Source of the DNA: a virus
IMG/VR virus record: IMGVR_UViG_3300020172_003043
Coordinates: 1 to 21,100 of that record
Length of the DNA stretch: 21,100 nucleotides
Direction: 5' to 3' (one strand)
A program made the translations under genes and the position numbers. Positions 380 through 13,947 of this stretch are shown here, one piece after another. The first letter of the stretch is position 1, and each line of letters opens with the position of its first letter. The notes beneath the pieces are model-generated. The model saw only the letters and a list, made by a program, of their open reading frames with translations, searched no databases and was not told where the DNA came from.

Positions 380-940
380 ATGTCAAGTTTACCAATATCA
401 CAATTACCCGAATTAACAGGATTAACTTCTAATTCTGAATTACCTGTTTCACAAGGTGGGGTTACATATAAAATTAAAAGAGGTAATATGGCCACAGGTA
501 AATTCTATGGTTCTTTTTACCATTCCACCACACAATCTGGATTTACAGCAAATACAACATACATTTTAAGTGCTTCAACAATTTCAGAAAATAATGGTAT
601 AACAGTCAATAATGGAACTGATTTTACCGTTTCAAGTGGTGCAACATATAATTTACAATTTTCCGCTCAAGTACAAAAAACACAGGGAGGTTCTTCTGAA
701 GATATGTATATATGGTTGAGAAAAAATGGAGCGGATGTTCCATCTTCTAACACAAAAATAACTTTTGCCAATAATGGTGTTTTATTGGTTGCTTCTTGGA
801 ATTTTGTAATAACATTATTGGCAAATGAATATTTACAATTAGCGTTTCAGGTAACCGACCCACATATAATTGTTTTTGCTGCACCATCAAATAGTGTACC
901 CGCAATCCCATCGGTTATTGTTACGCTTGTACAAATCTAA
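380..940 (+). CDS. Jelly-roll (C1q/TNF-like) virion protein with N-terminal attachment peptide
   Basis: A 186-residue protein. Residues 1-36 (SLPISQLPELTG, then ELPVSQGGVTYKI) match the short N-terminal attachment segment common in phage fibre and decoration proteins. The remainder (about 43-186) has the beta-rich pattern of phage C1q/TNF-like jelly-roll domains: YGSFYHSTTQSGF, FSAQVQKTQGG, IWLRKNGADVPSSNT, YLQLAFQVTD. Such domains typically form trimers at the virion surface. The gene at 951 is a paralogue over the whole jelly roll but has a different N-terminus. The start at 380 follows a TATTTATA element. The role is probably a fibre, baseplate appendage or capsid/tail decoration protein; which one cannot be decided from sequence. 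Confidence 0.8.
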   Translation: MSSLPISQLPELTGLTSNSELPVSQGGVTYKIKRGNMATGKFYGSFYHSTTQSGFTANTTYILSASTISENNGITVNNGTDFTVSSGATYNLQFSAQVQKTQGGSSEDMYIWLRKNGADVPSSNTKITFANNGVLLVASWNFVITLLANEYLQLAFQVTDPHIIVFAAPSNSVPAIPSVIVTLVQI

Positions 941-950
941 TTAATTCTGT

Positions 951-1448
951 ATGTCGGTAGTAATTAATGATTTAATAGATAGAGAAACAGGTAATATAAA
1001 AACCACATACACCAATTCAGGTAAACCATACGGTGCGTTTAAAAGTACCTCGAATCAATCAGGATTTACCGTTAATTCTACTTATATTGCTTCTTCACCT
1101 ACCGTTACAGAAAACGGAGGAATCACCGTGGTTAATGGTACCGATTTTAAAGTTCCAAGTAACGGAACATATGCAATGCAATTCTCCGTTCATTTGAAGA
1201 AAACTCAAGGTACTGTAAATAAAACAGTAAATCTTTGGTTAAGAAAAAACGGTACAGACATTGCAGATACCGACACAGAAATTACACTTTTTAGTAATAA
1301 CAGAATTAATATGACATTATTTAATTTTGTTGAGACCTTAAATGCCGATGATTATATACAACTTGCATTTAGTGTCAGTGACTCAAACATAATTTTAGAA
1401 AATACAACAGGAGTACCATCTGTGACATTTACTATTGTTCAAACCTAA
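951..1448 (+). CDS. Second jelly-roll (C1q/TNF-like) virion protein, paralogue of the preceding gene
   Basis: A 165-residue protein. From about residue 26 it aligns throughout with the preceding protein: YGAFKSTSNQSGF, YIASSPTVTENGGITV, LWLRKNGTDIADTDTEIT, YIQLAFSVSDSNII. The N-terminal 25 residues (SVVINDLIDRETGNIKTTY) are unrelated to those of the paralogue, so the same display domain seems to be mounted on a different adaptor. Only 10 nt separate the two genes and there is no TATTTATA element, so it is probably co-transcribed with its neighbour. The likely role is a surface-exposed trimeric fibre or decoration component; this is inferred from the fold pattern. Confidence 0.78.
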   Translation: MSVVINDLIDRETGNIKTTYTNSGKPYGAFKSTSNQSGFTVNSTYIASSPTVTENGGITVVNGTDFKVPSNGTYAMQFSVHLKKTQGTVNKTVNLWLRKNGTDIADTDTEITLFSNNRINMTLFNFVETLNADDYIQLAFSVSDSNIILENTTGVPSVTFTIVQT

Positions 1449-1449
1449 C

Positions 1450-1457
1450 TATTTATA
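1450..1457 (+). promoter_or_regulatory. TATTTATA element, 4 nt before the start codon
   Basis: TATTTATA lies just after the previous stop codon (1446-1448) and is followed by GAAT and the ATG at 1462. The layout is identical to the element at 368. Confidence 0.5.
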
Positions 1458-1461
1458 GAAT

Positions 1462-1830
1462 ATGGAATTTTTTATTAGACAAGGCGCATCAGAACCTATT
1501 TTAAAGTTAAGAATGATTGACGACGGTAAAAACGACAAGTCAGGTTTCAACGATTCTTTAGAAAGTTGTGACATCACGTTTGATATGTACGATGTGGAAA
1601 CCGGTGAACCTGAAATTTTAAATTCTGATTGTTACATTACCACAAGAGATAAAAAATATCATCAAACAACTGATGAATATTATATTGTTCATCGTTTTAC
1701 TGAATCTCAGACTTCTAAGGTTGGAAAATATGAAGGAAAAATAACAATCCAATTCTTAGATACTAGTTTAAATCCAACAACCAAACTCATTTTACCCGTT
1801 AAGGAAAAATTATTTATCACCATATTTTGA
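1462..1830 (+). CDS. BppU-N-like baseplate/appendage protein
   Basis: A 122-residue protein consisting of a single beta-rich domain. It opens with FFIRQGASEPILKLRMIDDG, continues with ITFDMYDVETGEPEI and ends with VGKYEGKITIQF and the strand LILPVKEKLFITI. This order matches the small domain at the N-terminus of BppU-type upper baseplate proteins, which joins receptor-binding parts to the tail. Here it stands alone without a C-terminal extension. It follows the two jelly-roll genes, which fits a common role in the adsorption apparatus. The family assignment is from memory of the pattern and is moderately sure. Confidence 0.65.
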   Translation: MEFFIRQGASEPILKLRMIDDGKNDKSGFNDSLESCDITFDMYDVETGEPEILNSDCYITTRDKKYHQTTDEYYIVHRFTESQTSKVGKYEGKITIQFLDTSLNPTTKLILPVKEKLFITIF

Positions 1831-1869
1831 TAATTCAAAATAATTTTGTATAATTGATAGTAAGACAAA

Positions 1870-1889
1870 TTACAACAATTCCGTTGTAA
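1870..1889 (+). promoter_or_regulatory. Leader hairpin upstream of the DNA polymerase (candidate autogenous operator)
   Basis: A perfect inverted repeat, TTACAAC-aattcc-GTTGTAA (7-bp stem, 6-nt loop), lies 29 nt upstream of the polymerase ATG. T4 DNA polymerase (gp43) represses its own translation by binding an mRNA hairpin in the same place; by analogy this could be an autoregulatory operator. No U-tract follows, so it is not a terminator. Confidence 0.4.
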
Positions 1890-1918
1890 GTTAATGTGTC
1901 ACCTTTAAATTATATAAC

Positions 1919-4816
1919 ATGAGTGAAGTCATTTCGCAAGAAACCATTGAAGGTTTCTTAAACGGTTGGGACCCCGAGCAGTATATCGTTGGGGTTGAGT
2001 ACGATTACAGAACCAACAAAATCTACAAAATTATTCAGGACCCTGAACAGGGAAAAATTGTTAAACCCGACACCTTTACACCATTTTTATGGGTTGGTGA
2101 CTTATCCGGTCTAAACTTTTACCAAAACAACAAAACCCTTCAAAAGAAAAAGATGGGTGAGTATGGTATTCTAATTGAGAAATTGGAAACGGGTGGAAAT
2201 GAAAGACTTGAGGCTGGTATGAATTACTTGGTCAAGAGTTTAAAAGGTTACACTGAGTTAATCAATTTCTTTAAACAAGGTGGTTTAGACCCATGGGGAG
2301 AAAATGTGAGACAACATTTTACAATCCTTTCTCCCGTTGAACAGTATTTGATTCAAAAGAAAAAAAGATTATTCAAAGGTATTGACGATTATTCGGGTGT
2401 TCATCGATTTGTATTCGATATCGAGACCACAGGTTTGGAACCTGAAACCAATACGATAATTCTTATTGGAGTCAAAGACAACCGTGGTTTAAACAGAACA
2501 ATTCCCGCGTTCGGTGAAGACGGTGAGAAAAATTGTATCGAACAATTCTTTGAAATCATTAGAGAATTAAAACCAACAATCATAGGTGGTTACAACTCCG
2601 CTTTCTTTGACTGGCCGTTTATTTTAAAACGTGCCGAGATTTTAGGTGTGGATGTAAGTGGACTAACTCAAATCTTTACTTCTCAAGGAATGAAAGAGAA
2701 AGAAGGTGTTTTGAAACTTGCAAACGAAGTTGAACCTTATACCCAACACGTTATTTGGGGATTCAACATTATCGATATCGCACATGCGGTTAGAAGAGCA
2801 CAGGCAATCAACTCTGAGATTAAATCGTGGGGTTTGAAATATATCACACAATATCTTGAAAAAGAAAAACCTAATCGTGTTTATGTCGATGGTTCTCGAA
2901 TTTCTAAGATTTATTTGGATAATGAGTTGTATTATGTAAATCCTAAAACAGGAAAATATAAACAGATTGGTGAACCCGGTACAGATGGTTTGATGGAAAA
3001 GTATCCGGGTAAATATGAAATATGGTCAGGTAGTAGAATCGTTGAACAATATCTTGACGATGACTTGTATGAAACTATGGTTGTGGACGATTCGTTCAGT
3101 CAATCAACTTTCTTACTTTCTAAACTTGTACCTACAACATATGAAAGGATTGCAACAATGGGAACGGCAACACTGTGGAAAATCATCATGTTAGCATGGT
3201 CATATGAAAACAACTTGGCCGTTCCAATCAAAGCAGAAAAACGTGCAATTACGGGTGGACTATCTCGTCTATTGAATGTGGGGTACGCTAAAGACATCGT
3301 TAAGTTTGACTACTCTTCACTTTATCCGTCCATTCAATTGGTTTATGATGTATTCCCTGAATGTGATATTATGGGTGTACAGAAATCGATGTTAAAGTAT
3401 TTCCGTAACATTCGTATCAAATACAAACATTTAGCTGGTGAATTAAAAGATAAAGACCCTGTACAAGCAGAAATGTACGACCGTAAACAATTACCAATCA
3501 AAATCTTTATCAACGCATACTTTGGTTCATTATCGGCACCACATGTATTTCCATGGGGAGATATGGATAAAGGAGAAACAATCACATGTGTGGGTAGACA
3601 ATGTCTTCGTATGATGATTATGTTCTTTGAGAAGAAAGGTTATAAACCACTTGTAATGGATACGGACGGGGTAAACTTCTCGACACCAGATAATGTAAAT
3701 GAAACTGTTTACATTGGTAAAGGTTTAAATGAATTAGTAGTTGAAGGTAAAGAATACCGTGGTATTGAAGCCGACACCGCAGAATTCAATGATATCTTCA
3801 TGAGAAATGAGATGGGGTTAGATATTGACTACACCGCACCTGCATGTATTAACGTCTCAAGAAAAAACTACATCATTAAATTGATGAAGAAAGGTAAAGA
3901 GAAAATCAAATTAACGGGGAACACAATCAAATCTAAAAAACTACAACAATATATTGTGGAGTTCTTGGATGAAGGTTTCAAATATTTGTTAAGTGGAGAT
4001 GGATTGTCTTTTGTTGAATTGTATTATCAATACGTAGATAAGATTTATAATAAAGAAATTCCACTTTCTAAAATAGCAAATAAATCTCGTGTTAAACAAT
4101 CGGTTGCCGATTATAAAAAACACATTCAAAAAACAACCAAGGCGGGTTCGTTAATGTCACGTCAAGCACACATGGAGTTAGTTATTCAAAATGATTATCC
4201 TGCGGGTCTTGGTGAAACTATTTTTTATGTGAACAACGGTAAAAAGAAATCTGATGGTGATGTTCAGAAAGTAACTAAACCAACTAAGAAACAACAAGAA
4301 GAATTTTTAGCTGAGTTTGGTCATTCAATGCCAAATAACTACATTCAAATTAATTGTTATATGGTTCCTGAAAAGGAATTAATAAACAATCCAAATTTAA
4401 CAGGTGATTATAATGTTGCTCGTTATTTGAGTAATTTTAATAAAAGAATCGAACCATTACTTTGTGTATTCAAACCTGAAATTCGTCATGATATTTTAGT
4501 GGAGAAACCTGAAGATAGACAGTTCTTTACTAAATCACAGTGTGAATTGGTTAACGGTTTCCCATTAAAAGAAGATGGTCAGGATAAATACGATGAGGTG
4601 ATGACCCTATCTGATGGTGAGGTTATATTTTGGAACCGAGTTAGTCGTGACCCATTCTTTATGTACGTAGAGGATAGTCTTAAACTTGCCGACCCGTATT
4701 GGGTTGACCACAATAGAAAAGTTGTGAGTCTACAGGCAGAAAGTATTAAGAGTAATGAGGATGAAATAATCGAAACCAATGGTAACGATTTTGCATACCA
4801 CGCAATAGAAAGTTAA
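1919..4816 (+). CDS. 43: Family-B replicative DNA polymerase with 3'-5' exonuclease (T4 gp43-like)
   Basis: A 965-residue protein carrying the full family-B motif order. Exo I is FVFDIETTG (D167, E169); Exo II is GGYNSAFFDWP (N226, D231); Exo III is YLDDD (Y378, D382). Polymerase motif A is DYSSLYPSI (D464). Motif B is KIFINAYFG (K528, N532). Motif C is DTDGVNF (D581, D583). A KxY-like SRKNY follows near 647-651, with thumb sequence after it. All catalytic acidic residues are present, so polymerization and proofreading should both work. Two positions are unusual for T4-type enzymes: the motif B Tyr of the usual YG is Phe (F535), and motif C reads DTDGVN instead of DTDSVY. The gene stands alone between virion genes, has no TATTTATA element immediately upstream, and has a hairpin in its leader. 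Its stop codon overlaps that of the convergent neck-type gene. Confidence 0.95.
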   Translation: MSEVISQETIEGFLNGWDPEQYIVGVEYDYRTNKIYKIIQDPEQGKIVKPDTFTPFLWVGDLSGLNFYQNNKTLQKKKMGEYGILIEKLETGGNERLEAGMNYLVKSLKGYTELINFFKQGGLDPWGENVRQHFTILSPVEQYLIQKKKRLFKGIDDYSGVHRFVFDIETTGLEPETNTIILIGVKDNRGLNRTIPAFGEDGEKNCIEQFFEIIRELKPTIIGGYNSAFFDWPFILKRAEILGVDVSGLTQIFTSQGMKEKEGVLKLANEVEPYTQHVIWGFNIIDIAHAVRRAQAINSEIKSWGLKYITQYLEKEKPNRVYVDGSRISKIYLDNELYYVNPKTGKYKQIGEPGTDGLMEKYPGKYEIWSGSRIVEQYLDDDLYETMVVDDSFSQSTFLLSKLVPTTYERIATMGTATLWKIIMLAWSYENNLAVPIKAEKRAITGGLSRLLNVGYAKDIVKFDYSSLYPSIQLVYDVFPECDIMGVQKSMLKYFRNIRIKYKHLAGELKDKDPVQAEMYDRKQLPIKIFINAYFGSLSAPHVFPWGDMDKGETITCVGRQCLRMMIMFFEKKGYKPLVMDTDGVNFSTPDNVNETVYIGKGLNELVVEGKEYRGIEADTAEFNDIFMRNEMGLDIDYTAPACINVSRKNYIIKLMKKGKEKIKLTGNTIKSKKLQQYIVEFLDEGFKYLLSGDGLSFVELYYQYVDKIYNKEIPLSKIANKSRVKQSVADYKKHIQKTTKAGSLMSRQAHMELVIQNDYPAGLGETIFYVNNGKKKSDGDVQKVTKPTKKQQEEFLAEFGHSMPNNYIQINCYMVPEKELINNPNLTGDYNVARYLSNFNKRIEPLLCVFKPEIRHDILVEKPEDRQFFTKSQCELVNGFPLKEDGQDKYDEVMTLSDGEVIFWNRVSRDPFFMYVEDSLKLADPYWVDHNRKVVSLQAESIKSNEDEIIETNGNDFAYHAIES

Positions 4817-9383: not shown

Positions 9384-10490
9384 ATGGGATTACCTAAAAG
9401 AAAAAATAACATTAAAGTATACGGTGTGAACACTGGTTCAAACGCTGGTGATATCATTGGTAGAAGAAAAGAATTGTTGGAGAACATTACAAAGTCCGAC
9501 ACATATCTACCCGATTCTATTTTACACGATGACCTTGATTTAGGTATGCTCGATTTTGTTAAGTCGAACTTTAAAGTTATTTCCGATAGTGTACAGATTC
9601 CAATTGTTCCTAAAATATTAACGGTTCAAAGATGGGGTGAGTTCACAAATAATTGGTCATTTTCTGATGAGGATGGAAATATTAAATTACCTTTTATTGC
9701 CGTGGTTCGAAAACCCGACGTTCAATTTGGTACCAATCCCGCAATACAAAGAACAATTCCTGACAGAAGACAATTCTTCTACGCAACGGTTCCAACATGG
9801 GACGGTAACCAAATGGGTGCCGATGTTTATAAAATACCCCAACCAATTGCAGTTGATATTGGATTTGACGTGACTATTGTTTGTACAAAATTTAGGGACA
9901 TTAATAAATTCAATAAAATTGTTTTAGAACATTTCTCATCTCGTCAAGCATATACCACGGTTAAAGGACACTACATTCCAATTGTCTTAGATAGAATTGA
10001 AGATAATACTCCTATGGATACTTTGGATGGAAGAAGATTCTACGTTCAAAACTATTCGTTCACTATGTTAGGTTTCTTAATTGATGATGAGGAGTTTGAA
10101 GTAAAACCGGCAGTTAATAGGTCTTTACTTATGACTGAGGTAGATGTTACTTCACACAAACAAAGTAATCCCACCATAGATTTAACAATCAATTGTAATT
10201 ACAGTGGAGGTTCAATTGTTGCAGATTATACAGTTACTGCGAGTCGTCCTGTGGATAAAACAATACGAATTTCATTTACCGATACATTAAATGTGGTTTC
10301 GGGTTCAACTGTTCAAATCCCTGTAATAATCTTTATTGAACCTAAACAAACTTCGGGGACAATAAATTATGTTATTAATGATAACTATAATAGGTTAAAT
10401 CAACAAAGTAATATAACTGAATTAAACATAAATGTAATTGGTAGAAGTAAGTACGATTATAATCACATAATCAATTCTACATTCGACTAA
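9384..10490 (+). CDS. Putative tail completion/terminator-type protein with a C-terminal beta-sandwich extension
   Basis: A 368-residue protein; ATG 9384 is 2 nt after the previous stop. Residues 1-260 look like a conserved myovirus structural protein: YLPDSILHDDLDLGMLDFV, KILTVQRWGEF, KFRDINKFNKIVLEHFSSRQ, GHYIPIVLDRIED, RRFYVQNYSFTMLGFLIDDE. The middle part (pairing partners, then SSRQAY) is reminiscent of tail-terminator/sheath-terminator proteins such as T4 gp15, and the gene precedes the sheath gene. Residues about 268-355 read like a Calx-beta/Ig-like sandwich: YTVTASRPVDKTIRISFTD, then VQIPVIIFIEPKQTSG. This is an uncommon addition for a completion protein. Its stop overlaps the stop of the convergent small gene at 10487. 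Confidence 0.5.
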   Translation: MGLPKRKNNIKVYGVNTGSNAGDIIGRRKELLENITKSDTYLPDSILHDDLDLGMLDFVKSNFKVISDSVQIPIVPKILTVQRWGEFTNNWSFSDEDGNIKLPFIAVVRKPDVQFGTNPAIQRTIPDRRQFFYATVPTWDGNQMGADVYKIPQPIAVDIGFDVTIVCTKFRDINKFNKIVLEHFSSRQAYTTVKGHYIPIVLDRIEDNTPMDTLDGRRFYVQNYSFTMLGFLIDDEEFEVKPAVNRSLLMTEVDVTSHKQSNPTIDLTINCNYSGGSIVADYTVTASRPVDKTIRISFTDTLNVVSGSTVQIPVIIFIEPKQTSGTINYVINDNYNRLNQQSNITELNINVIGRSKYDYNHIINSTFD

Positions 10491-10663
10491 TCCCCATAGA
10501 TGTCTTTTTTCTTGGGAGTTTCTACGGATTTGTTTTCTTTACAAGTATCCTCAATCCATTTCTGAACAAGTTTGTAAATTTTCAAACCGTTTTTATCACA
10601 ATGTTCTTTTAACATTTTGTGATGTTTTTCACTTACCTTAATGTTTTTCAGGGTATTTTCCAC
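10487..10663 (-). CDS. Short ribbon-helix-helix (CopG/Arc-type) DNA-binding protein
   Basis: A 58-residue protein that starts at GTG 10663: MENTLKNIKVSEKHHKMLKE, then HCDKNGLKIYKLVQKWIEDT, then a charged tail ending KKKDIYGD. The order is a short strand (KNIKVSE), helix, turn with glycine and second helix (KIYKLVQKWIEDTCK), which is the classical ribbon-helix-helix layout; members dimerise and bind DNA through the strand. The start codon is GTG, with a TATTTATC element 6 nt upstream on the minus strand; no ATG start is available. Its TAG stop (10487-10489) overlaps the TAA of the preceding plus-strand gene. It sits divergently upstream of the sheath gene, so it may control its own promoter or nearby tail promoters. 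That role is inference. Confidence 0.72.
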   Translation of the reverse strand: MENTLKNIKVSEKHHKMLKEHCDKNGLKIYKLVQKWIEDTCKENKSVETPKKKDIYGD

Positions 10664-10669
10664 GATAAA

Positions 10670-10677
10670 GATAAATA
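10670..10677 (-). promoter_or_regulatory. TATTTATC element for the ribbon-helix-helix gene
   Basis: On the minus strand TATTTATC-TTTATC-GTG(10663) has the same polarity and near-start spacing as the plus-strand elements, and supports the GTG start. Confidence 0.45.
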
Positions 10678-10734
10678 TTGATACGAAAAGATAAATTAGT
10701 ATCTCTAATGATATTTTTTGAGAAAATCAAGGAA

Positions 10735-10755
10735 ATCTTTGCTAAAAACAAAGAT
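10735..10755 (+). repeat. Hairpin abutting the sheath promoter element
   Basis: ATCTTTG-ctaaaaa-CAAAGAT is a perfect 7-bp inverted repeat with a 7-nt loop. Its last base is the first base of TATTTATT (10755-10762). It could be an operator next to the sheath promoter. With no T-tract it is not a terminator. Confidence 0.3.
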
Positions 10756-10762
10756 ATTTATT
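10755..10762 (+). promoter_or_regulatory. TATTTATT element with A-rich leader for the tail sheath gene
   Basis: TATTTATTGATAAA is followed by an almost G-free, A-rich leader to ATG 10801, 38 nt after the element. The leader has no Shine-Dalgarno sequence. A-rich leaders are known to favour translation in Bacteroidota. Confidence 0.5.
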
Positions 10763-10800
10763 GATAAAGAAATAAAATTAAACAACCAAACAATTAAAAA

Positions 10801-13650
10801 ATGGCAAATTCAAATAGAGTTTTTGTATCTCCTGGTGTTTACACATCAGAAAAAGATTTAACATTCGTAGCACAAAGTGTTGGGGTGAGTACATTGGGGT
10901 TGGTCGGTGAAACCTTAAAAGGTCCCGCTTTCGAACCAATATTAATAACTAGTTTTGACGAATTCAGGTCTTATTTTGGAACAACGTCACCAGCGAAAGA
11001 TGGTAACAACAATCCAAAATATGAATTACCTTACGTTGCTAAAGCTTACCTTCAAGAATCAAATCAACTTTTTGTAACAAGAATCTTAGGTCTTACAGGA
11101 TACAAACCAAACAAAACATTCGCGGTTAAAACAATCGGTGGAGTTCAATTAGGAACTTACAGTGGTTCTACAACAGGTACAACCATTCCAACAGTAACAG
11201 GTGTAACAGGTAGTACACATTACACAATCTTATCAGGTTTAACTGCATATGACGGTACGACATTACCTAACTACCTTGTTTCAAACTATAGTGGTAATAC
11301 TTCAGGTAATAACGGACAATGGTTTGTTATTGGTGAGGTTCCCGCATCTTCAACTTCTGGTTTAACAGGAACTGAGGCAACATCTCCTTTAACAGGTTTA
11401 GATAACGCAACTAATAACAATACTAAAGAATGGTATAATGTTGTAACAAACGCATCACTTACCGAAGTATATTCTTATTTGTTTGTTTACAACAGTGGTA
11501 CAAGTAGATTCGATGTTACACAGTACACATATAACGCAACTCAAAACACCGAATACAACAACCAAGTTGTTTTAGCATTCAGGTCAAGAGGTTCTTATGT
11601 TGGTCAAACATTGACTTATGAAGTAACAGGTAACACTCAATTTGAAATTACAGGTTCAAGTTTGGCAACTAATCCACTTGCAGAATTCACGGTTAATGTA
11701 ACAGGAGCAACAAGTGGTGGTAAAACTTTCACATGTAGTTTAGATAGTAGTTCGTCAAAATATGTAACTAAAGTATTTGGTTCGGATGTTTATGACAAAT
11801 CAAAATCTGATTGTCCAATTTATGTTTATGAATCATACCCTAACTATTTAGCGGAAGCATACAAACAAGGACTTATTAAAGGTTTGAGTTTAACTGAAGT
11901 TTACAATACCGAAGGTACAAGTTTCTTAAACCAATGGGATACCCCAATGGCACCTACAGTTGTTTCTGAAGTAAGAGGTGGTAACGTTACAGATTTATTC
12001 GATGTTATTACAATCTCTGATGGTGAATCTGCGAACACCGAAGTTAAAGTTTCAATTATCAATATTGATGTTGATACAAAAGAATTCGATTTAATTGTAC
12101 GTGATTTTAATGATACCGATGAAAATATCGTTGCTCTTGAGAAATTTACAAGATGTTCAATGAATCCAGAACTTCCGGGTTATGTTGCTAAAAAAGTTGG
12201 TACATCTGATGGTGAATATGAATTACGTTCAAGATACATCATGTTAAGTATGGCGGATAATCACCCAACCGATGCATATCCCGCAGGTTTCAAAGGTTAC
12301 ACAACAAACGCAACTTTTGGTGGTAGTAATGAGTTAGGTTCTGTAATGTACAAAACTAATTTCTACCAAGCAGGAGATACAACAGGTTATTTGGCTGATG
12401 GTACACCAATCCTTTCAACAGGAGATAAAGTAAGAAAAGTTTACTTTGGTTTGGCTAGTCCTACAGGTAGAGTTACTTATGATAATGACCTATTCAAATA
12501 TAAAGGTTCTGCTGCCGCTGGTGCAACTAAAGGTTTCCACCTTTCAACAAACGCATCATCTATCACAGGTACAACATATACAACTACATCATATGACTTA
12601 GAAGGTCAAACAGGCGTTGATAACGTTTTAACAAATATTAGTTACCGTAAATTCACATTCGCTCCGGCAGGTGGTTTCGATGGTTGGGATATCTACAGAA
12701 ACGTAAGAACTTATGGAGATGGTTACATTTTCGGTAAGAAAACTTATGTGAGTGGTAACACCGCAAATGGTGGAGTGTTTAGTACATCAGTTGGAAACAG
12801 TGACTATTACGCATACACTCAAGGTATTGACACATTTGCAAACCCTGAAGCGGTTGATATTAATATCTTCGCAACACCGGGTATCAACTTCTACGACCAC
12901 AGTTCAATCACAGCTTACGCAATTGATATGACCGAAAATGATAGAGCGGATTCATTATATGTAATCGCATCACCAAACTACGGAACTGCAACTGAAGTAA
13001 TTGACGCATTGGACGGAGTTGCAATTGATAGTAACTATTCTGCAACTTACTGGCCTTGGATTCAAATTAGAGACGTGGATAACGCAACTCAATTATATGT
13101 TCCACCAACAGGTGAAGTAGTAAGAAACATTGCGTTGACAGATAACGTATCTTTCCCTTGGTTCGCGGTAGCGGGTTACTCAAGAGGTTTGGTTAAATCA
13201 ATCAAAGCATTTAAAAAATTAACTCTTGATGAAAGAGATGATTTATATAAAGCAAGAATTAACCCGATTGCAACTTTCTCTGATACAGGTACTATCATTT
13301 GGGGTAATAAAACCCTTCAAGTTAGAGAATCTGCACTTGATAGAATCAACGTAAGAAGATTGTTATTAAGAGCAAGAAAACTTATTTCAGCAGTTGCGAT
13401 TAGATTGTTGTTCGAACAAAACGACGAACAAGTTCGTAACGAGTTCTTGAGATTGGTAAATCCTATATTGGATGCAATTAAAAGAGAAAGAGGTCTTTAT
13501 GATTTCCGTGTAACAGTATCAAGTGACCCTGAGGACATTGATGCAAATACATTAAGAGGTAAAATCTACATTAAACCAACTCGTTCACTTGAATTTATCG
13601 ATGTTGAATTCGTAATTACTCCGACAGGAGCATCATTTGACAATATTTAA
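10801..13650 (+). CDS. 18: Contractile tail sheath protein (T4 gp18-like)
   Basis: A 949-residue protein. The N-terminus (VFVSPGVYTSEKDLTFVAQS, then STLGLVGETLKGPAFEPILI) and segment FRSYFGT plus YVAKAYLQESNQLFVTRILG are the hallmark start of myovirus sheath proteins. The C-terminal third (about 700-949) is also canonical: YPPTGEVV-type loop (YVPPTGEVVRNIAL), LTLDERDDLYKARINPIATF, IWGNKTLQ, RINVRRLLLRARKLISAVA and NPILDAIKRERGLYDFRV. T4 gp18 has 659 residues. The extra length lies in the middle (about 110-620), which is rich in Gly, Ser, Thr and Asn and probably forms surface-exposed insertions. It is followed by a strong terminator and, after the array region, by the tube gene. The sheath polymer contracts around the tube on infection. 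Confidence 0.95.
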   Translation: MANSNRVFVSPGVYTSEKDLTFVAQSVGVSTLGLVGETLKGPAFEPILITSFDEFRSYFGTTSPAKDGNNNPKYELPYVAKAYLQESNQLFVTRILGLTGYKPNKTFAVKTIGGVQLGTYSGSTTGTTIPTVTGVTGSTHYTILSGLTAYDGTTLPNYLVSNYSGNTSGNNGQWFVIGEVPASSTSGLTGTEATSPLTGLDNATNNNTKEWYNVVTNASLTEVYSYLFVYNSGTSRFDVTQYTYNATQNTEYNNQVVLAFRSRGSYVGQTLTYEVTGNTQFEITGSSLATNPLAEFTVNVTGATSGGKTFTCSLDSSSSKYVTKVFGSDVYDKSKSDCPIYVYESYPNYLAEAYKQGLIKGLSLTEVYNTEGTSFLNQWDTPMAPTVVSEVRGGNVTDLFDVITISDGESANTEVKVSIINIDVDTKEFDLIVRDFNDTDENIVALEKFTRCSMNPELPGYVAKKVGTSDGEYELRSRYIMLSMADNHPTDAYPAGFKGYTTNATFGGSNELGSVMYKTNFYQAGDTTGYLADGTPILSTGDKVRKVYFGLASPTGRVTYDNDLFKYKGSAAAGATKGFHLSTNASSITGTTYTTTSYDLEGQTGVDNVLTNISYRKFTFAPAGGFDGWDIYRNVRTYGDGYIFGKKTYVSGNTANGGVFSTSVGNSDYYAYTQGIDTFANPEAVDINIFATPGINFYDHSSITAYAIDMTENDRADSLYVIASPNYGTATEVIDALDGVAIDSNYSATYWPWIQIRDVDNATQLYVPPTGEVVRNIALTDNVSFPWFAVAGYSRGLVKSIKAFKKLTLDERDDLYKARINPIATFSDTGTIIWGNKTLQVRESALDRINVRRLLLRARKLISAVAIRLLFEQNDEQVRNEFLRLVNPILDAIKRERGLYDFRVTVSSDPEDIDANTLRGKIYIKPTRSLEFIDVEFVITPTGASFDNI

Positions 13651-13658
13651 TAAAAAAA

Positions 13659-13687
13659 GGGAAGGTGTAAAAACCTTCCCAATTTTT
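13659..13687 (+). terminator. Rho-independent terminator after the sheath gene
   Basis: GGGAAGGT-gtaaaa-ACCTTCCC is a perfect 8-bp GC-rich stem, preceded by an A-run and followed by AATTTTT. It begins 8 nt after the sheath stop codon. Confidence 0.9.
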
Positions 13688-13731
13688 GTTTTATGTTGAA
13701 TAATATAAAAATAAAAGAATTATAAAATTAC

Positions 13732-13822
13732 CCAGTATATATGCTCCAGTATTCTAGTTCTAGTATTTTATTATCTAGTTTTATTAATCTAGTTAATTTA
13801 CTTCTAGTATCTAGTACTAGTA
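13732..13822. repeat. Degenerate 14-15 bp tandem array of CTAGT-headed units
   Basis: C(T/C)AGT words start at 13732, 13746, 13760, 13775, 13789, 13804 and 13817, with spacings of 14, 14, 15, 14, 15 and 13. Extra CTAGT words lie about half a unit away at 13754 and 13811. Seven CTAG tetranucleotides thus fall within 67 bp. Typical units are CCAGTATTCTAGTT, CTAGTTTTATTAAT and CTAGTTAATTTACTT. The block is extremely AT-rich, non-coding, and lies between the sheath terminator and the tube promoter element. It looks like a multi-copy protein-binding region, possibly an iteron-like origin or a transcription enhancer; neither is proven. Confidence 0.75.
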
Positions 13823-13896
13823 TAGAGAAAAAATACGAAATTTTTTTGACATAATCAAGTATTTGGAAAGAAATTTTTATTTTTTTAACAACGACA

Positions 13897-13904
13897 TATT
13901 TATA
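13897..13904 (+). promoter_or_regulatory. TATTTATA element with A-rich leader for the tail tube gene
   Basis: TATTTATAGG lies 43 nt before ATG 13948. The leader after it is almost only A with a few T and C, closely resembling the sheath leader. The spacer 13681-13947 holds no gene; besides this element it contains the CTAGT array. Confidence 0.5.
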
Positions 13905-13947
13905 GGTAACAAAGTAAATAAAAAAAAATTAAAAACAAACAATAGAC

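Follow-up and report, generated by a model that had tools for sequence, protein, structure and literature searches.

A conserved, putatively protein-binding array of CYRG boxes between the tail sheath and tail tube genes of large environmental phages

The sheath-tube junction and its boxes

The DNA analysed, called the window below, is a stretch of 21,100 nucleotides from a viral record of IMG/VR (IMGVR_UViG_3300020172_003043, positions 1 to 21,100). Between its tail sheath and tail tube genes lies an array of short boxes, and the features at and near this junction are as follows.

10487..10663, minus strand: ribbon-helix-helix (RHH) protein of 58 aa with a ParG-like fold (from profile, Pfam and model), a syntenic neighbour, disfavoured as binder of the array
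10801..13650, plus strand: tail sheath gene (PHROG 23), upstream of the array
13659..13680 (approximate), plus strand: terminator-like hairpin of the sheath transcript, GGGAAGG..CCTTCCC and then a T-rich stretch (from the sequence)
13687..13702, no strand: degenerate remnant (four mismatches in the best window match) where many relatives have the parS-like palindrome TGTTCCACGTGGAACA
13732..13820, no strand: CYRG box array, two CCAG and seven CTAG with AT-rich spacers (from direct reading, a shuffle test and conservation)
13846..13859, plus strand: element TTGACATAATCAAG between array and promoter box, conserved in relatives
13896..13904, plus strand: late promoter-like box ATATTTATA of the tube gene, with the word TATTTATA at 13897, at fixed distances from array and start codon
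13948..14436, plus strand: tail tube gene (PHROG 4542), downstream of the array

Read directly from the sequence, the CCAG boxes stand at 13732 and 13746 and the CTAG boxes at 13754, 13760, 13775, 13789, 13804, 13811 and 13817. The preliminary description of this DNA had reported seven units with spacings of 14, 14, 15, 14, 15 and 13 bp, and the same spacings are obtained for units at 13732, 13746, 13760, 13775, 13789, 13804 and 13817; its two half-register copies are the boxes at 13754 and 13811, and its seven CTAG words within 67 bp are those from 13754 to 13820. CTAG is indeed found singly elsewhere in the window, where the remaining eight copies are isolated, and the total of 15 falls short of an expectation of 32.6. 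Seven CTAG words were reached in none of 20,000 dinucleotide-preserving shuffles of the gap at 13651-13947 (maximum five), and Tandem Repeats Finder calls the array at 13748-13823, with a period of 15 and a score of 50. The array is non-coding, as had been proposed, lying as it does between the sheath and tube ORFs, and coding sequence as an explanation of it is unsupported. The terminator and promoter element that were said to bound it are also present, as the hairpin, which has a comparable counterpart after the sheath stop codon in many relatives, and the TATTTATA box.

This word, TATTTATA, occurs six times on the plus strand of the window and not once on the minus strand, and at 368, 1450, 13897, 15425 and 17403 it stands shortly upstream of plus-strand gene starts, for which reasons we regard it as probably the late -10 box of the phage. 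Taken as a promoter box it implies very short leaders at some genes. At the tube gene, TATTTATA lies 46 +/- 4 bp upstream of the ATG, and from the last array box down to TATTTATA there are 82.6 +/- 6.2 bp (58 regions, with L182 and L627 as exceptions to the latter), the loci being related, so that these standard deviations overstate their independence. Such a conserved position is what would be looked for in an upstream array that controls a promoter. The corresponding distance from last box to TATTTATA is 54-63 bp in most regions of a more distant group.

By comparison with relatives, the unit of the array is better written as CYRG (CTAG, CCAG, CTGG and rarely CCGG) than as CTAG, because relatives swap CTAG for CCAG or CTGG and one array (L563), built from CCAG, CTGG and CCGG, lacks CTAG altogether. 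The 202 boxes counted in 25 chosen regions comprise 135 CTAG, 39 CTGG, 26 CCAG and 2 CCGG, with A/T favoured at both flanks. CCCAGTA is frequent at the left outer end of the arrays, and TACTGG at the right outer end. Pairwise distances between boxes peak at 6-8, 14-15, 21-23, 28-30, 42-45, 50-51 and 58-60, and the best period is 7.4 bp, with a spectral maximum that exceeds all 500 jittered controls, but narrowly. The earlier statement that the spacing is not in helical phase thus stands for the single units, and has to be amended in that the underlying lattice is one of about 7.4 bp.

Conservation of the array among relatives

A search of IMG/VR with the tube protein gave 80 loci, in every one of which the tube is 87-100% identical to that of the window, and in spite of this near-identity the spacer DNA varies widely among them. 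Nearly all of the 75 relatives with a tube more than 85% identical carry a cluster of CTAG, CCAG or CTGG before the tube gene. The preliminary description had suggested looking for the array in related phages and had reckoned with its absence or lack of conservation there; it is instead strongly conserved at the sheath-tube junction. A search of 2.9 million viral contigs with DNA only, using the 18-mer CCAGTATACTGGWACTAG, returned 19 matches, all 19 of them between sheath and tube genes. There is one cluster per genome where this was tested: the array before the tube is the densest CTAG cluster of the whole record in G004 (288 kb), G006 (310 kb), G007 (142 kb) and G012 (92 kb), the sheath-tube gap of G009 (176 kb), which has a short array, holds the joint densest CYRG cluster of its record, and the sole cluster of three CTAG words in G015 (162 kb) is at the corresponding place. 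In some close relatives the number of boxes goes down to 3-5.

Further away the array becomes thinner. A second sample of 80 loci, retrieved by a query with 70% tube identity, mostly has about 1 kb and an extra ORF between sheath and tube, and many of these loci retain a reduced array near the tube while others have few boxes or none. The public phage records with 33-43% tube identity (Mel-JY01, immuto, RM378 and LR756508) lack a CTAG triple throughout, and the collections searched contained no isolate of the clade. Triples seen in three other genomes were considered as relocated arrays and rejected, those of G018 and G019 (184-188 kb) being in an ordinary intergenic gap and that of G024 in coding sequence.

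The boxes change far more slowly than the DNA in which they lie. Between close relatives the rate of differences is 2.4% at CYRG positions, 14.5% in the spacers and 13-14% in the flanks, and when C and G are matched by base class it is 2.8% inside the boxes, 36% in the spacers and 19% outside. Changes within boxes often turn one CYRG word into another (44 of 78), and one 15-bp unit is missing between the sequence of the window and those of L005, L007 and L011, so that whole units are gained or lost. On this comparison the array is kept by selection while the surrounding DNA changes. Constant words in fast-changing spacers, together with gain and loss of units, would be the pattern of a multi-copy protein-binding site, and it is likely that a protein-binding array is what we are dealing with.

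The junction is also a place of insertions. Homing-endonuclease-like ORFs of 507-535 aa are found there on either side of the array (1313-2836 in L146, 1027-2634 in L182 and 2283-3836 in L627), and insertion of such an ORF, or of one of 275 aa, between the two genes as a rule leaves the array beside the promoter of the tube (L146, L511 and part of the 70-80% group). The exceptions are L182 and L627, in which an intact array and the TATTTATA-like box of the tube are about 1.6 kb apart, with a homing-endonuclease-like ORF on the opposite strand between them. The ORF inserted in L182 has a Pfam match to DUF7487 and weak matches to Mom and MTES_1575.

Possible binders and functions

The best single reading, which we favour tentatively and with somewhat less than even confidence, is a cooperative protein-binding array that acts on the late promoter of the tube gene. 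The CYRG boxes, usually CTAG, would be degenerate palindromic sites at which a dimeric protein encoded by phage or host binds the DNA, in an array that would occupy the spacer between the terminator of the sheath operon and the tube's own late promoter. With 6-9 or 14-16 bp from one box to the next, several dimers could sit side by side on the lattice of about 7.4 bp, and the number and clustering of boxes would therefore outweigh their exact spacing. The bound patch would then act, over a distance of about 80 bp, on the tube promoter downstream, either as an upstream activator or as a silencer. Protein binding, its cooperativity and tube transcription as the output are what we infer from the boxes and their fixed place relative to the promoter box. 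Among the options first raised for this array was a transcription enhancer; a role linked to the promoter is indeed the best supported, by the fixed distance.

Three observations count against a promoter-linked function. It is unusual for a regulator to have its array at one promoter only; the split of about 1.6 kb in L182 and L627 is one that a promoter-proximal site should not outlast unless the insertion is recent; and among the more distant relatives there are some that have the promoter box and few CYRG boxes or none. Whatever its function, the array is conserved over many uncultured genomes, unique in each where tested, and has a readable grammar, in a field where hardly any non-coding control element is known from large environmental phages, and it offers a concrete bait for a new DNA-binding protein.

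The main rival, rather unlikely in our view, is a single-copy site for the handling of the genome, be it centromere-like, anchoring or packaging. A putative DNA-binding protein would coat the boxes, an adjacent parS-like palindrome would in many relatives additionally recruit ParB of the host, and the outcome would be positioning, condensation or segregation of the phage genome, or else a disturbed segregation of the host chromosome. This would suit the one dense cluster per genome, and also the arrays of L182 and L627, which persist far from the tube promoter box. It would also suit what adjoins the array. In many relatives a palindrome, TGTTYCACNNGRAAC, is found between terminator and array, with mostly 31-35 bp separating it from the first box (37 regions), and the 16-bp form TGTTYCACGTGRAACA, which we take to be the ParB site (parS) of bacterial chromosomes, is exact in 6 of 60 close regions and has 1-3 mismatches in 34 more. 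Examples with the palindrome in the gap upstream of the array are L020, L031, L037, L017 and L627, the last with two copies carrying a one-base change. The exact 16-mer occurs a single time in G004 (at 67744) and in G006 (at 59216), in both beside the array, and the same 16-mer is present in many bacterial genomes, Bacteroidota included, sometimes in several copies. The likeness to a chromosomal parS has its limits, since the site is degenerate in the window, with four mismatches to TGTTYCACGTGRAACA, and is not present in roughly one third of those close relatives in which the array is retained, and since the centre of the palindrome (CACGTG) varies in many relatives while the arms stay, which calls for caution over the parS reading. 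In nine relatives, several of them partial, neither the Pfam ParA-type ATPase PF13614 nor a ParB N-domain over the cut-off was found. Furthermore, virulent phages are not known to need partition, and with few exceptions the array goes together with the tube promoter.

RHH centromere systems nevertheless offer a parallel to such genome handling, as they use tandem 7-bp repeats (PMC9499535) or degenerate tetramer boxes with AT-rich spacers (PMC7308502), and short degenerate boxes in AT-rich DNA are also what the array consists of. Another mark of RHH-type plasmid centromeres, a cognate RHH binder whose own operator uses the same box, was not found in the regions upstream of the nearby RHH gene, which carry TATCT boxes. 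The most specific version is a composite centromere-like locus, host-type parS and CYRG array, one per genome of a virulent phage and placed before the tail tube gene, at which host ParB and the putative box binder would position the genome or disturb the segregation of the host chromosome; we consider this doubtful. The literature that was searched gave no precedent for CTAG arrays or for a phage parS used with host ParB. Together with the parS-like sites beside it, the array allows a direct connection of a virulent phage with ParB of its host to be put to the test.

It had also been suggested that the nearby RHH protein binds the array, and its gene does encode a protein of that type. Profile matches are to ParG (1p94, E 0.01) and SvtR (2kel, E 0.014), with weak Pfam matches, and a model with a pLDDT of 71 has ParG as its best Foldseek match (probability 0.97, E 0.48). 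That the array is the operator of this protein is nevertheless improbable. The gene is about 3 kb off and syntenic in the relatives checked, but the protein is equally conserved in array-less relatives, with its predicted DNA-contact strand KNxKI unchanged, and the region upstream of its own gene has other boxes, TATCT at 10- or 20-bp spacing, with CYRG in 1 of 68 regions. Upstream of the RHH start we counted a mean of 2.0 TATCT/AGATA words against 0.47 expected (68 regions), and in the more distant group the boxes are TACCT-like. Because array-less relatives have the same protein, and other boxes with almost no CYRG stand upstream of its gene, the RHH protein probably regulates itself at TATCT/TACCT-like boxes and does not bind the array. 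The TATCT boxes at 10-bp spacing in relatives, in the region that corresponds to 10664-10740 of the window, are a probable autoregulatory operator of the RHH gene. Tandem Repeats Finder calls a 21-bp repeat at 10710-10768, near this upstream region.

When genomes with the array were compared in gene content with the array-less G018 and G020, other candidate genes were obtained, without assigned function. Avoidance of CTAG was considered as a sign of a binder and rejected, since the depletion is similar in G018 and G020 (0.47 and 0.43) and in genomes with the array (0.25-0.90).

An iteron-type replication origin, at which an initiator would bind the boxes and melt the AT-rich neighbourhood, was another early suggestion and is about as improbable as an operator of the RHH protein. 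Tandem boxes in AT-rich DNA and one cluster per genome would suit an origin, and in G006 the cumulative GC skew begins a long rise near the array, but the GC-skew check that had been proposed gave no consistent strand-corrected switch at the array in six genomes, a cluster of DnaA boxes is absent there, and the number of boxes goes down to 3-5 in some close relatives. Least probable is that the array is an element of RNA or else a neutral repeat of microsatellite type. Units are gained and lost, and the short arrays of L042 and L055 can form a hairpin (z -2.4 and -3.0), but those of the window (z -1.1 and -0.3), L054, L058, L014 and L031 fold not clearly better than shuffles, and a neutral repeat would not show boxes six times more conserved than spacers.

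Known systems and further observations

Several known systems resemble the array in part. The trp operator of Escherichia coli, bound by TrpR, has CTAG half-sites in an AT-rich context, and what we take to be its core, ACTAGTTAACTAGT, is found in L182; the array has far more boxes at variable spacing, and the likeness may be due to chance. The parH centromere of plasmid TP228, with the RHH protein ParG, shares with the array degenerate tetramer boxes and AT-rich spacers, and an RHH gene with a ParG-like fold is close by here as well (PMC7308502). It differs in that the boxes of the array are CYRG, self-complementary as a class, that the array is placed at a structural gene and not in a partition operon, and that a link to the RHH protein is disfavoured; a ParF/ParA-type gene was not found in the nine relatives. 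In plasmid pSM19035, parS consists of contiguous heptads, 5'-WATCACW-3', that are bound by the RHH ParB omega and overlap promoter regions, and contiguity matters (PMC9499535). Tandem boxes on a lattice of 7 bp at promoter regions are the common feature, whereas the boxes here are CYRG, gaps between them are common, and a partner ATPase was likewise not found in the nine relatives.

Some observations on relatives are worth adding. The genome G015 (L373) lacks the parS-like site at its array and has four copies of it inside long inverted repeats in its first 4.5 kb. A four-copy unit at 400-4225 carries TTATCCACA words, which are DnaA-box-like, followed by an inverted repeat TTTTGGCAGTA..TACTGCCAAAA centred on the parS-like site; the units sit between short early-type genes and are found in one other viral contig only (L619), and the region looks like a mimic of host origin elements. 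Four Bacteroidota-type promoter-like sites, TTTG-N18-20-TANNTTTG, lie at 1486-3901 in the first 4 kb of L373, and seven are present in the 20-kb piece against 1.1 expected, which suggests a host among the Bacteroidota for the clade. GATC is wholly absent from G004, G012, G018 and G020, where 278-986 copies would be expected, which points to a strong avoidance of restriction in these phages; other relatives retain it. In G004, finally, a region of long open frames at 110000-125000, roughly 15 kb in length, has an extreme GC skew, with values of -0.45 to -0.73 for bins of 5 kb.
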